The notes below the pieces were generated by a model, which worked only from the letters and a program-made list of their open reading frames with translations, ran no database searches and was not told the DNA's origin. A program made the position numbers and the translations under genes. Source: Saprospira grandis DSM 2844 (lineage in GTDB: Bacteria > Bacteroidota > Bacteroidia > Chitinophagales > Saprospiraceae). Taken from it: DNA of 43,863 nt. Shown here one piece after another: positions 2,152 to 29,074 of this stretch (the first letter of the stretch is position 1; each line of letters begins with the position of its first letter). The stretch is from contig CAMDAB010000014.1 in assembly GCA_945888475.1 (NCBI GenBank), positions 1-43,863 of the forward strand, written 5' to 3'.

Positions 2152-3537
2152 TTAATTCAGGTTTTTTATCAATTCTATTAGTTGCTCAAAATCTGGTTTT
2201 AGGTCGTAAAAAAGTTCTTCATTCCTTTTTCTCATTTCCCGAAACACTGATTCTTCCGTTTCCGGAAAATTTCTCAGTACTTCATACAATTCCGATTGGC
2301 AATGATAATTGTCAGGGTTTTTTTCTACCGCTTCCTTTGCATACATTAAGGCCTGATCGAGATGTTTATAAACCCTGTTTCTATTGGCCAGCATCAGTGG
2401 AATTTTATAGCTCTGACTGCCCCGATTGTGCGCCTTTTCCAGCAGCGGATCCATCTGTTCCGATAGGATGTCTTCTCTAGTCCGACTTCCTTGCCAGCCA
2501 ATTTTAAAATAATAAATTGCTTTGGCAATTAGCAGTTCTGGATTGTCGGAAGACTTTTGCAGGAAAAAGTCCAAATCCTTCAGCAGTTCCTGTTCGTCAA
2601 GCAACCAACTTTGTGGCTCATCAACTGCCTGTATGATATATTCCAACGCCTTATCATAATCATCAATTGCCGGCTCCCGATATATTTTCGACAGCAGGTG
2701 TTTGCATTGTAGGATTACATTGTTCGGCATCGCTTGGTCTGCCTTGTTTTTTGGAGCAGCATCAATACAGATTTTCAGAATTTTAATGGCAGTTTCGAAG
2801 TTTTTGTTGCGGCTATAGTAAATTGCAGCTTCGTGTAAATAGCTCAGTGCTTGCAGGAAATTATCATCAAAGCGATAGCGTTTAATGTTATTGTCATCTC
2901 TGCAAGCTTCAAGATTTAAGATGGCCAAAGATTTGTAATAATTGTGGAGCTCTGCTTCTTTTTTGGCCAACTGAAGAAAGTAGATTTTATCTCTGGCAAA
3001 AGGTTCCTTGCTGGCATCAGAGGCCAAATTGGCCGAATCGATATAAGCCAGCGATTTATCCATATCAAATTGCTCATTATCGATATCGATATGATAATGA
3101 CAGAGGCTCAGTTTGTGAAAGACATTGATGCGGAATGAATTATCAGTACTCAGTTGCAGCGCCTTTTCAAAATCTTCGACTGTTTTGTTAGCATTGCTAT
3201 AAAAAAAATGAAAATTGCCACGCAGAAAATAGAGTTGCGCATTATTGGGTTGCAGGGCAATGAGCTCATCGAGCTGAGCCGCAGTCTCGCTCATCTCTGC
3301 GCTCACTAAGGTTTCATTATCATTGTTTACTGACCTGTAAATTTCAATATTCAGTGTTCTGAGATCCTGATAAACTTTTTCATAAAGCAGCGATGGATTA
3401 TGGGGATCCTTCTCCAGCTTTTGTTTCAGTTCCAGTTTGCGTCTATTTTCCGCAAGTCTCAACATTTCTGGGTCGCCTGGTTGTGCATGGCATAAAGTGA
3501 TACAAAATAAATACAAGTACGATAAAATATATTTCAT
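2152..3537 (-). CDS. Secreted TPR-repeat protein
   Basis: 461 residues with a signal peptide (MKYILSYLYLFCITLCHA, cleavage likely before QPGD). The rest is mostly helical with tetratricopeptide-like repeats: one around residues 95-130 (QLYFLRGNFHFFYSNANKTV then DFEKALQLS) and a clear one near 395-425 (ALMYAKEAVEKNPDNYHCQS). Such periplasmic TPR proteins act as protein-binding scaffolds, but no enzymatic domain is visible and the partner is unknown. It stands alone: about 200 bp of non-coding DNA separate it from ndk on the opposite strand, and 108 bp separate it from the next minus-strand gene. Confidence 0.75.
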   Translation of the reverse strand: MKYILSYLYLFCITLCHAQPGDPEMLRLAENRRKLELKQKLEKDPHNPSLLYEKVYQDLRTLNIEIYRSVNNDNETLVSAEMSETAAQLDELIALQPNNAQLYFLRGNFHFFYSNANKTVEDFEKALQLSTDNSFRINVFHKLSLCHYHIDIDNEQFDMDKSLAYIDSANLASDASKEPFARDKIYFLQLAKKEAELHNYYKSLAILNLEACRDDNNIKRYRFDDNFLQALSYLHEAAIYYSRNKNFETAIKILKICIDAAPKNKADQAMPNNVILQCKHLLSKIYREPAIDDYDKALEYIIQAVDEPQSWLLDEQELLKDLDFFLQKSSDNPELLIAKAIYYFKIGWQGSRTREDILSEQMDPLLEKAHNRGSQSYKIPLMLANRNRVYKHLDQALMYAKEAVEKNPDNYHCQSELYEVLRNFPETEESVFREMRKRNEELFYDLKPDFEQLIELIKNLN

Positions 3538-25610: not shown

Positions 25611-26234
25611 ATGAAAAAGCCCTATATAATTGGTATCACTGGTGGAAGCGGTTCAGGTAAAACTTCTTTTCTGCATCAACTTCAGAAAATGTTTCAGGAA
25701 GATGAAATCTGTGTACTTTCTTCCGATAATTACTATAAACCTGTTGAAGAGCAAGAGCTTGATGAAATGGGTATTGCAAATTACGATTTGCCAGGTTCAA
25801 TTCACCGTGATGAGCTGGAAAGGGATGTTAAAAAACTAATTGCGGGAGAAACAGTTTACAGACAAGAATATACCTTCAATAATCCTAACCGAGTGCCGGA
25901 AAATCTGGTTTTTAAACCTGCGCCAATCCTTATTCTGGAGGGAATCTTTGTATTTCATTTCGAAGAGATTTCTAAACTGATCGATCTCAGGATTTTTCTG
26001 TACACCAGTGAGTCCACCGCCTTGTCAAGAAGGATTAGACGCGATAAGATTGAACGCAATTATCCGCTCGAAGATGTTTTGTACCGCTACGAAAATCATG
26101 TACTGCCTACCTTTAGAAAATACATTGAGCCCATCAAAGAAAAGTCTGATATCATCATCAACAACAACCACAATTTCGAGAAAGGGCTGGATGTAATGAA
26201 TGGGTTTTTGAGGACTGTGTTGGGGAGGGGCTGA
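25611..26234 (+). CDS. udk: Uridine kinase
   Basis: 207 residues. It phosphorylates uridine/cytidine in pyrimidine salvage. P-loop GGSGSGKTSF (11-20), SSDNYYKP with the substrate-binding Asp, NPNRVPENLVF near the base-binding loop, ILEGIFVFHF and SRRIRRDKIERN (lid) are all in place. The C-terminus DIIINNNHNFEKGLDVMNGF is intact, but a diverged second copy of this 3' end lies 1.2 kb downstream, on the far side of a RhuM gene, suggesting that foreign DNA entered here. Expressed divergently from folD. Confidence 0.96.
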   Translation: MKKPYIIGITGGSGSGKTSFLHQLQKMFQEDEICVLSSDNYYKPVEEQELDEMGIANYDLPGSIHRDELERDVKKLIAGETVYRQEYTFNNPNRVPENLVFKPAPILILEGIFVFHFEEISKLIDLRIFLYTSESTALSRRIRRDKIERNYPLEDVLYRYENHVLPTFRKYIEPIKEKSDIIINNNHNFEKGLDVMNGFLRTVLGRG

Positions 26235-26292: not shown

Positions 26293-27324
26293 TTATTTGC
26301 TAGCTGGGGGTAAATTTTTAATAATTCTATCAAAATCGCTTTCAAATAAGCGGTCTTGTGTTATTCTATATTTTTCAAATTCACTTTCGGCATGTGCTCT
26401 GGCAATTTCTGCACTTACTTTTCCTGCGTCTTGAAGTACTGATCTGTCGGTTGCCTCAATAAACCTATTGAGTCGGCTTTCCCAGTCTTCCATAGTCATT
26501 GGAATTTGCCGTATAGCCATATCTTCTGCTATATCTAAATAAGCAGAAACCAAACGTTGCAGCTGTTGCATCTCGATTTCGGTTAGATAGTTTTTAGCCA
26601 CACTCACATCAAATTTTTGGATTTTACCATTTGGAGCATCCTTCCAGGTGGACAAGCCCATTTTTTCTTTTTGGTGGTCGGCACGTTTTACAATGATTTC
26701 TGCCGCTGTATGACCATGTATAGCCCAATGTAGTTTATTCTGAACAGTTGAAAAAAATCGCTGTGTAGCAGATGACTTTACGTCATAATCAATGGAAGTG
26801 GAATATATATCTGTTATTTTCTGATAGAATTTCCGCTCACTCAAGCGTATTTCTCTTACTCGTTGTAACTGTTCTTCAAAATATTTTTTACCAAGAATAC
26901 TGCCATCATTTTTTAAGCGTTCATCGTCCATCGCAAAACCTTTGATGGTAAATTCTTGAACTATCTGAGTTGCCCATTTTCTAAACTGCACAGCACGTTC
27001 CGAATTTACTTTATATCCTACCGCAATAATTGCAGAAAGGTTATAATGCTGAGTATGATAGTTTTTTCCATCTGAAGCAGTTATTCGAAATTTTCGAATA
27101 ACTGAATCTTCATTCAATTCATTATCTGCAAAAATAGTTTTAAGGTGATAGTTTATAGTATGCTTTTCAATATTGTAAAGCGTCGCCATCATTTTTTGAG
27201 ATAGCCATATATTTTCGTCAGCATATACTGCTTCAACCGCTCCTTCACCAGAAGCAGCAATAAAGGTAAGATACTCAGCAGCAGATGATCTGACCATATC
27301 TTTATTTTCTTTCTTTTTGGCCAT
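26293..27324 (-). CDS. RhuM-family protein (virulence-associated, defence-island linked), copy 1
   Basis: 343 residues. The RhuM pattern is clear: ENIWLSQKMMATLYNIEKHT (a helix-turn-helix-like start), DSVIRKFRITASDGKNYHTQ, YNLSAIIAVGYKVNS, FRKWATQIVQEFTIKGFAMD, DERLKN, and the RAD/YLTEIEMQQLQRLVSAYLD region. RhuM proteins are named from a Salmonella pathogenicity island and are often found inside type I restriction-modification loci; their biochemical activity is not established. This copy has a longer N-terminus and differs considerably from copy 2 at 27518, so the two are not a recent duplication. It lies between udk and a second udk 3' end. Confidence 0.88.
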   Translation of the reverse strand: MAKKKENKDMVRSSAAEYLTFIAASGEGAVEAVYADENIWLSQKMMATLYNIEKHTINYHLKTIFADNELNEDSVIRKFRITASDGKNYHTQHYNLSAIIAVGYKVNSERAVQFRKWATQIVQEFTIKGFAMDDERLKNDGSILGKKYFEEQLQRVREIRLSERKFYQKITDIYSTSIDYDVKSSATQRFFSTVQNKLHWAIHGHTAAEIIVKRADHQKEKMGLSTWKDAPNGKIQKFDVSVAKNYLTEIEMQQLQRLVSAYLDIAEDMAIRQIPMTMEDWESRLNRFIEATDRSVLQDAGKVSAEIARAHAESEFEKYRITQDRLFESDFDRIIKNLPPASK

Positions 27325-27428: not shown

Positions 27429-27509
27429 GACATCAACATCATCAAGCGCAATTATAAAAAAGGGGTCGAGCTGATGAAGGGGTTTTTGAGAAGTGTATTG
27501 GGGAGTTGA
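27429..27509 (+). pseudogene. Orphan 3' end of a udk-like gene
   Basis: Frame GAC 27429 to TGA 27507-27509 encodes 26 residues ending ELMKGFLRSVLGS, which aligns with the udk C-terminus ending DVMNGFLRTVLGRG (codons 26148-26234). The two DNA segments are clearly homologous but diverged, with an 11-bp identical core GGGTTTTTGAG. An in-frame stop precedes it, so no complete gene is present. This is a fragment from a related udk or an imperfect attachment-site duplication. Confidence 0.75.
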
Positions 27510-27517
27510 TTACCCGA

Positions 27518-28492
27518 TCATTTCTTCGTTTTATGTTCAATTGCTTTTAAGCTCTCCAAGTAGTTTTTTTCCGCTTCGCTAAGTGTTTTTTGCTGATATT
27601 TTTTATATTCATCGGTCGCTTTTTCTATGGCTTTCTCGTGGGTTACACTTCCTGCATTTTGTAATAATTTTTCTCCGCTCATTGTCAAAATTCGGTCTAG
27701 ATGTGCCGCCCAATCTTTCATCGTCATTGTTTCTTCACGTTCGGCTTGTCGCTCGGCAAAGTCCAAATAACCAGAAACAATCTGCCCTAATGCTCGTAGT
27801 TCTTTTTCGTTTAAGTAATTTTTTGCAATCACAATATCTTTTAAATGTGGCTCCGAGCCCGAAAAGGTCATCAAACCCATAAACTCTTTTTCGGCATCGG
27901 CGCGGCTAAAAATTACTTCGGCTGCGGTTTGTCCGTGTACGGCAAAGTGAATTTTATTTTGTACTTTTTTAAAAAATGCAACGGAAACATCAGCTTTATG
28001 GTCGTAATCAATGCTTGTGGCATAAATGTCGAGTACTTGCCGGTAAAACACTTTTTCAGATGCTCGAATATCTCTAATGCGTTGCAACAGTTCTTTCCAA
28101 TAACCGCCTCCGCCCAAATTTCTCAGGCGTTCATCGTCCATCGTGAATCCTTTTACAATGTATTCTTTTAGACGTTGTGTTGCCCACTGACGAAAACGGG
28201 TGCCTTGTACAGATTTGACACGGTAACCCACTGAAATGATGACATCTAAGTTAAAATGATTTACTTCATAGTTTTTGCCATCTTTGGCAGTTGTTCGGAA
28301 TTTCCGAACAGCTGATTTTTCTTCCAATTCTCCTTCTTCAAAAATGTGTTTAATGTGTTCGCTAATCGTTGATTTTGCTTTGTCAAATAACAATGCAATT
28401 TGGTCTTGTGTGAGCCAGACTGTTTCATTTTCGAGTTGGACATTTATTTTGGTCTGACCATCATCTGTTGTGTACAATATTATTTCGCTCAT
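27518..28492 (-). CDS. RhuM-family protein, copy 2
   Basis: 324 residues. Same pattern as copy 1: ETVWLTQDQIALLFDKAKST, SAVRKFRTTAKDGKNYEVNH, LDVIISVGYRVKS, FRQWATQRLKEYIVKGFTMD, DERLRNLGG, SIDYDHK and YLNEKELRALGQIVSGYLD. Its ATG overlaps the TGA of the hsdM remnant (GCATGAGC), the arrangement expected when rhuM is translationally coupled to hsdM in a type I restriction locus. The frame is intact although its partner is destroyed. A strong promoter lies at 28836-28805. Confidence 0.9.
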   Translation of the reverse strand: MSEIILYTTDDGQTKINVQLENETVWLTQDQIALLFDKAKSTISEHIKHIFEEGELEEKSAVRKFRTTAKDGKNYEVNHFNLDVIISVGYRVKSVQGTRFRQWATQRLKEYIVKGFTMDDERLRNLGGGGYWKELLQRIRDIRASEKVFYRQVLDIYATSIDYDHKADVSVAFFKKVQNKIHFAVHGQTAAEVIFSRADAEKEFMGLMTFSGSEPHLKDIVIAKNYLNEKELRALGQIVSGYLDFAERQAEREETMTMKDWAAHLDRILTMSGEKLLQNAGSVTHEKAIEKATDEYKKYQQKTLSEAEKNYLESLKAIEHKTKK

Positions 28493-28720
28493 GCTTCAAT
28501 TTCGTTAATGATACTATCAATGTCTGTACGGAGTTTGTTGATTTTCTCTACGCTGAAAGAAATCTCATGATTGTTGCTTAAAGTTTTCACTGATAAAGCG
28601 GTAAAACAGCGTGCCTAAAACAAAATGCTTAAAGTCCCATCCATCCACTGAGCCACGAACATCGTTGGCTATTTTCCAAATTTTGGCCTGTAATTCTTGT
28701 CTTTGTGCTATGCTGTTCAT
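28489..28720 (-). pseudogene. hsdM: hsdM remnant: N- and C-terminal ends of a type I restriction methylase subunit joined by an internal deletion
   Basis: ATG 28720 opens a 51-codon frame (stop 28565-28567) containing RQELQAKIWKIANDVRGSVD and GWDFKHFVLGTLFYRFISEN, the characteristic N-terminus of HsdM. About 20 bp before that stop the +1 frame takes over and reads EISFSVEKINKLRTDIDSII, then NEIEA and a TGA overlapping the rhuM ATG, which resembles HsdM C-termini. Roughly 400 or more codons, including the SAM and NPPF motifs, are missing. The two ends are out of frame, so no methylase can be made. The short N-terminal peptide could still be translated and coupled to rhuM. Confidence 0.85.
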
Positions 28721-28778: not shown

Positions 28779-29074
28779 AAACCACAGCTATAAATTAATC
28801 CTTACAAATATAGGCTATTAGAATCATACATTCAAATTATCCAAAAAAGAAATTTTAAGAAGGTAAAACTCGGCGATTTTTACAAATCCGCCCAATTTTC
28901 CTGTATTAGATTTCCTTAAAATTATAAAAAATATGGGTAAAATAGCAAAAGAATGCTCTGAGAAAGAGCAAATTGTGGATTTAGTGTCAATTTATTTTAG
29001 AGGCTAAAAATCTTTTCTAAAAAAAGATATGAGGGTAGTAGGTACTATATTTTATAGCTGTGGTTTAAACCACA
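28779..29074. repeat. 16-bp inverted repeat (288 bp span) plus adjoining 16-bp palindrome
   Basis: AAACCACAGCTATAAA at 28779-28794 is perfectly inverted at 29051-29066. The right arm runs into the perfect palindrome TGTGGTTTAAACCACA (29059-29074), giving three copies of the AAACCACA half-site. Between the arms are the rhuM promoter and AT-rich DNA without a convincing gene (a 24-codon frame at about 28934 is not credible). The element could be a MITE, a terminal repeat left by a lost mobile element, or operator half-sites. With the hsdM remnant it accounts for most of the 688-bp gap 28493-29180; nothing else is visible in 29075-29180. Confidence 0.8.
28805..28836 (-). promoter_or_regulatory. 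Promoter for the hsdM remnant-rhuM transcript
   Basis: Minus strand: TTTG (28836-28833), 20-bp spacer, TATATTTG (28812-28805). Exact match to the Bacteroidota consensus. The leader would begin near 28798 and run through the left arm of the 16-bp inverted repeat. Confidence 0.7.

Follow-up and report, generated by a model that had tools for sequence, protein, structure and literature searches.

The window, a 43.9-kb stretch of DNA (43,863 nucleotides) that makes up contig C14 in a draft genome assembly of 4.28 Mb, carries two rhuM genes and the remains of an hsdM gene in the order udk / rhuM2 / udk-end / rhuM1 / hsdM remnant (Table 1). The udk-end copy is closer to the tail of the udk gene of its own genome (score 66) than to those of 34 relatives (best score 50). 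The udk gene was also considered as an insertion hot spot, which was rejected since none of the 34 udk loci of relatives contained a RhuM or Hsd match.

Table 1. Coordinates of the features at the rhuM locus within the window.
Feature	Coordinates	Strand	Evidence
udk	25611..26234	+	
rhuM2, 343 aa, second orphan rhuM	26293..27324	-	47% identity to RhuM1
Diverged udk 3'-end copy between rhuM1 and rhuM2	27450..27509	+	11/18 residues identical to udk C-terminus, E 3e-5 (next best 0.5)
rhuM1, 324 aa, intact	27518..28492	-	Pfam PF13310, PADLOC PDC-S05
hsdM 3' end, 27 codons and a TGA stop that overlaps the rhuM1 ATG	28489..28572	-	59-74% identity over 26-27 aa
7-nt junction placing the hsdM ends out of frame	28573..28579	-	Alignment with relatives
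hsdM 5' end, 47 codons	28580..28720	-	83-94% identity over 47 aa with intact HsdM of seven loci
Promoter-like 37-bp element, ~86 nt before the hsdM start	28806..28842	-	6 places in the genome, including the window

Translation of the hsdM 5' end yields 47 residues with HsdM homology (MNSIAQRQ...FISENF), after which the same frame continues with KQQS and a stop codon. The tail lies in a different frame (28572-28489, minus strand), reads NHEISFSVEKINKLRTDIDSIINEIEA followed by a stop codon, and overlaps the rhuM ATG at 28492 with its TGA. In tblastn searches, both ends were found, in this order, in a single HsdM of approximately 515 aa encoded at seven loci (L042, L094, and L122-L126), with E-values from 6e-28 to 2e-24 for the N-terminal and from 3e-8 to 2e-6 for the C-terminal end. 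This collinear match to the two termini of a single HsdM protein makes the remnant an hsdM by descent. According to the alignment, approximately codons 48-488 of the homolog are missing (~441 codons, ~1.32 kb). The Pfam N6_Mtase domain, which comprises residues 171-481 of the intact homolog, lies wholly inside this missing stretch; therefore, no methylase can be made, and the remnant does not qualify as a functional methylase gene. The initial annotation had described an hsdM reduced to its two ends directly upstream of rhuM, and the minus-strand coordinates together with the match of both ends to one HsdM with a central gap bear this out. The start-bearing end is indeed joined out of frame to the tail, although 47 rather than the estimated 48 of its codons are homologous. 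The tail does resemble HsdM C-termini, and the alternative that the region represents a complete short gene family was ruled out, since the six best non-self matches of the N-terminal end among 148 genomes (83-94% identity) all lie in frames of 520-538 aa.

Intact operons with a same-family hsdM were identified in relatives. The gene order is hsdM-hsdS-rhuM-hsdR in L042, and hsdM-rhuM-hsdS followed by other genes and then hsdR in L094 and L178; the latter encodes a relative of RhuM2 (85% identity) directly after an intact hsdM. An hsdM-rhuM pair sharing this ATGA overlap is present in L182. The window shares with these type I operons the same-family hsdM directly upstream of rhuM, the ATGA overlap, and the same rhuM families, but differs from them in that hsdM is represented by its ends only, while hsdS and hsdR were not found. 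With queries from the related family and some other families, no match to HsdS or HsdR with E <= 1e-4 was obtained in the window, although the HsdS queries also missed an HsdS-looking frame in L343 and remote HsdS families could escape this search. The window thus does not hold the hsdS and hsdR of a functional type I restriction-modification operon, and the loss initially ascribed to hsdM appears to have been described correctly but too narrowly. Given the operons in relatives, we consider it quite probable that the locus is a fossil type I restriction-modification operon, in which an embedded passenger, rhuM, has survived the loss of the hsd genes.

Upstream of hsdM, L178 carries a short HTH_3 gene (3058-3468), as does L179 when judged by eye. 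In L042, L094, L180, and L182, the remains of this gene look eroded by eye, and the copy in L042 again consists of two ends only.

While the ~1.32 kb missing from hsdM agree with the one internal deletion of about 1.3 kb that had been proposed, a single event is not demonstrable, since no intact hsdM copy was found at the same site and none of 5 same-genus genomes contained a RhuM match. Intact operons thus exist in relatives, as had been anticipated, but none was found at the same position. The udk gene was present in 4 of the 5 same-genus genomes, with no folC, ferredoxin, RhuM, or Hsd match within the 18 kb examined; folC itself was present in 4 of the 5. An empty site could not be reconstructed from the comparison within the genus. 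Displaced copies of the missing parts were also searched for and rejected, as the best HsdM match elsewhere in the assembly was only about 33% identical and the best HsdR match 28% (a second one 40% over 57 aa); given such remote matches, the rest of the assembly showed no sign of the parts lost from this family.

Upstream of the remnant lies the promoter-like element, which we take to resemble the Bacteroidota promoter consensus. It was found at 5 further places in the genome (0 for the reversed pattern), but in none of the other-genome loci among the 225 loci scanned, so it is not the promoter of the operons in relatives. The other copies are located at L226 88, L227 4325, L228 834, L229 4071-4107 (minus strand), and L230 1516. 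By eye, the genes behind the copies include an HsdM-like gene (C247, N6_Mtase), a DNA-methylase cluster (C168), an ATPase gene (C30), and a metal-efflux cluster (C45), while the copy on C87 ends at the contig edge. Furthermore, an inverted repeat of 19 nt with 95% complementarity (28779-28797 / 29048-29066, 250 nt apart) is situated just upstream of the hsdM remnant; it was rejected as the boundary of a mobile element, since it gave nothing but short, dispersed matches within the genome.

The internal deletion would have removed the methylase and spared the upstream promoter as well as the stop/start overlap, so that production of rhuM could have continued, perhaps less well because the hsdM ends are out of frame. 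The promoter, start, and coupling to rhuM had all been described as left in place. The promoter-like element is present, whereas the coupling is retained in part: the tail frame has kept the ATGA overlap with rhuM but has no ATG of its own, and the frame that carries the start terminates 75 nt short of rhuM.

Eroded hsdM genes directly before rhuM are not confined to the window. We scanned 307 stretches upstream of rhuM, in which the window is represented as L169 and the genome of L041 as L347. These constitute a subset of the existing rhuM matches, from which duplicates and rhuM starts preceded by fewer than 150 bp had been removed, and the loci are thus neither exhaustive nor independent; as the scan began at rhuM, a dead rhuM behind a live hsdM falls outside the count. 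A same-strand HsdM match (E <= 0.01) was present in 51 of the 307 stretches, compared to 0 in the reversed scan. In 39 of the 307, hsdM was located within 120 bp of rhuM: 32 of these were classified as intact, defined as a match to at least 80% of the query or reaching the edge of the stretch and judged without stop-by-stop inspection, and 7 were fragments. The fragments comprise 5 erosions before an open rhuM (the window, L041, L101, L113, and L305), 1 rearrangement (L271), and 1 cut by a contig end (L108). In L041, about 20-23 residues from the C-terminal region of HsdM are left before an open rhuM, and in L113 the last ~52 codons. L101 and L305 resemble the window in having an eroded hsdM immediately upstream of an open rhuM. 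However, L101 differs in that the first 50 and last 62 hsdM codons are joined in frame, with Pfam still recognizing the ends of HsdM_N and N6_Mtase, and L305 in that only the first 19 codons are left, in a frame whose stop forms the ATGA overlap with rhuM. The flanks of the eroded loci yielded neither HsdS nor HsdR (with L305 examined as the 18-kb L344, L041 over 1 kb upstream, and L113 as a 6.2-kb contig), which is a weak result given the short flanks of L041 and L113 and the fact that the same HsdS queries missed the frame in L343.

L271 was rejected as an erosion because its wider contig, L343, contains an hsdM match further upstream that is cut by the contig end. In L343 (2404-5524), genes for a YhcG nuclease and a GmrSD-type protein separate this match from rhuM; they are followed by a 73-codon frame in which the hsdM 3' end is repeated and the ATGA overlap with rhuM is retained.

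Taken by itself, the locus is an ordinary pseudogene event with a moderately interesting recurrence, and the interest lies in the latter: the five loci with a ruined hsdM directly before an open rhuM suggest that rhuM is useful without its restriction partners. No description of hsdM erosion before rhuM appeared among the results listed in literature searches. Should rhuM persist intact in several lineages in which the hsd genes have decayed, it would be more than an accessory of type I restriction, and such loci would represent natural restriction knock-outs, in which RhuM could be studied without HsdM, HsdS, or HsdR.

The same loci raise the question of whether the hsdM remnants have been kept as leaders that bring ribosomes to rhuM, a stronger claim that is compatible with a fossil operon. 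Among the 32 adjacent pairs that look intact, 27 are tightly spaced, with an ATGA overlap in 13 and an hsdM stop codon starting 4-10 nt before the rhuM ATG in 14; the others are L094 and L378, in which the stop codon lies 46-51 nt before rhuM, and L084, L296, and L334, the spacing of which could not be used. Moreover, the in-frame stub of L101 has 112 codons and a stop codon beginning 14 nt before rhuM, the stub of L305 is held in a 39-codon frame that ends in the ATGA overlap, and a 33-codon frame does so in L041 (as L347). However, the two frames in the window are unjoined and that of the tail lacks an ATG, similar scraps would be expected from passive decay next to a gene that is kept, and 5 of the 13 ATGA pairs stem from one genus (L273, L275, L278, L279, and L286) and are therefore not independent. 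We thus regard the retention of leaders as unlikely.

Within the proposed fossil operon, rhuM1 itself might be decaying and merely be the last gene to go. Its restriction partners are gone, and it has a histidine at residue 165, where proline is conserved in 77 of 80 relatives. Still, the frame is open, as initially annotated, and RhuM1 keeps the common residue at 108 of the 111 columns that are conserved to at least 95% among 80 aligned relatives (L050, with 198 aa, left out and L178 added; L116, a range with a stop codon, was excluded from one alignment). RhuM2, which belongs to another clade, deviates at 24 of the same columns. Between RhuM1 and its nearest relative, L041, dN is 0.093 and dS 1.24, and the two lineages showed no rate difference in the Tajima test (chi2 from 0 to 0.57 with six outgroups). 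In pairs with computable dS, dN/dS is about 0.05-0.12, a rough value since dS is near saturation, which also makes selection before and after the loss of hsdM inseparable. Both proteins score far above the PF13310 cut-off of 33.7 bits (363.7 for RhuM1 and 366.9 for RhuM2). On these sequence comparisons, rhuM1 is an intact and conserved gene that has diverged under purifying selection, and its ongoing decay seems improbable. Finally, in a draft of 318 contigs and 90.7% completeness, a contig might have been joined across the core of an intact hsdM and the remaining operon genes, but such an assembly artifact is highly improbable in view of the only remote HsdM and HsdR matches elsewhere in the assembly, the distance of the junction from the contig ends, and the comparable erosions in four other assemblies.

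While the initial conclusion that rhuM outlived its restriction partner holds for this locus, the hsd genes are not its usual partners. In 73 of the 80 closest RhuM loci, neither HsdM nor HsdS nor HsdR was matched (E <= 1e-6) in the available flanks, which range from none to ~8 kb a side; this number includes L041, L101, L108, and L113, the scraps of which did not pass that threshold. The remaining loci comprise 2 with all three Hsd proteins, 1 with HsdM and HsdR, and 4 with HsdM only. It follows that rhuM rarely depends on an hsd gene. Nine upstream neighbors were scanned with Pfam, which revealed, among others, Eco57I-type methylases (L043 and L052), N6_N4 methylases (L047, L059, and L069), a DndE-domain protein (L054), and HsdM (L084), and these varied neighbors place rhuM in or beside many kinds of defense locus. 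This agrees with a previous report, in which RhuM was found beside restriction-modification and PrrC-like genes and a toxin role was proposed (PMC3710099), as well as with the PDC class of single-gene defense candidates found by guilt-by-embedding, most of which await validation (PMC12988326). Both RhuM1 (residues 2-323, E 6e-174) and RhuM2 (E 7e-152) match the PADLOC profile PDC-S05, a candidate class for which the tool displays no cut-off; the link between RhuM and PDC is made by this profile match, as the accessible text of PMC12988326 does not contain RhuM by name.

As a single-gene anti-phage candidate of the PDC-S05 class, RhuM is predicted to function by itself and to bind DNA through a winged-helix-like N-terminal part. 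The structural model of RhuM1 has a mean pLDDT of 79.8 and a pTM of 0.50. Its best structural neighbors are chains of the DNA-binding Deinococcus protein DdrC (Z 8.3 over 195 residues, 10% identity), with a poor whole-chain fit (rmsd 11.8). The N-terminal domain of DdrC alone gave a Z of 6.9 and an rmsd of 4.2 over 95 residues, where a Z under 8 may mean a common arrangement, and the Foldseek E-value against DdrC was no better than 1.8e-3. The likeness of the model to DdrC therefore hints at DNA binding by RhuM, and no more. Comparisons of the RhuM1 sequence with solved structures, PHROGs, and NCBIfam yielded nothing useful.

In a broader reading, which we put forward as possible yet doubtful, RhuM would be an autonomous defense gene, carried along in restriction operons through its stop/start coupling with hsdM and repeatedly freed at operon death, when both ends of hsdM and the junction escape the loss. 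What is left of hsdM would in this case have been retained as a leader, and operon death would provide one way for stand-alone defense genes to originate.

Besides rhuM1 and rhuM2, the same genome contains further RhuM-like genes, including G000:C94:1961-3796 (L233) as well as genes on G000:C4 and G000:C133. Several of these match only the N-terminal ~120-160 residues of RhuM1, and three lie in a row on C94.
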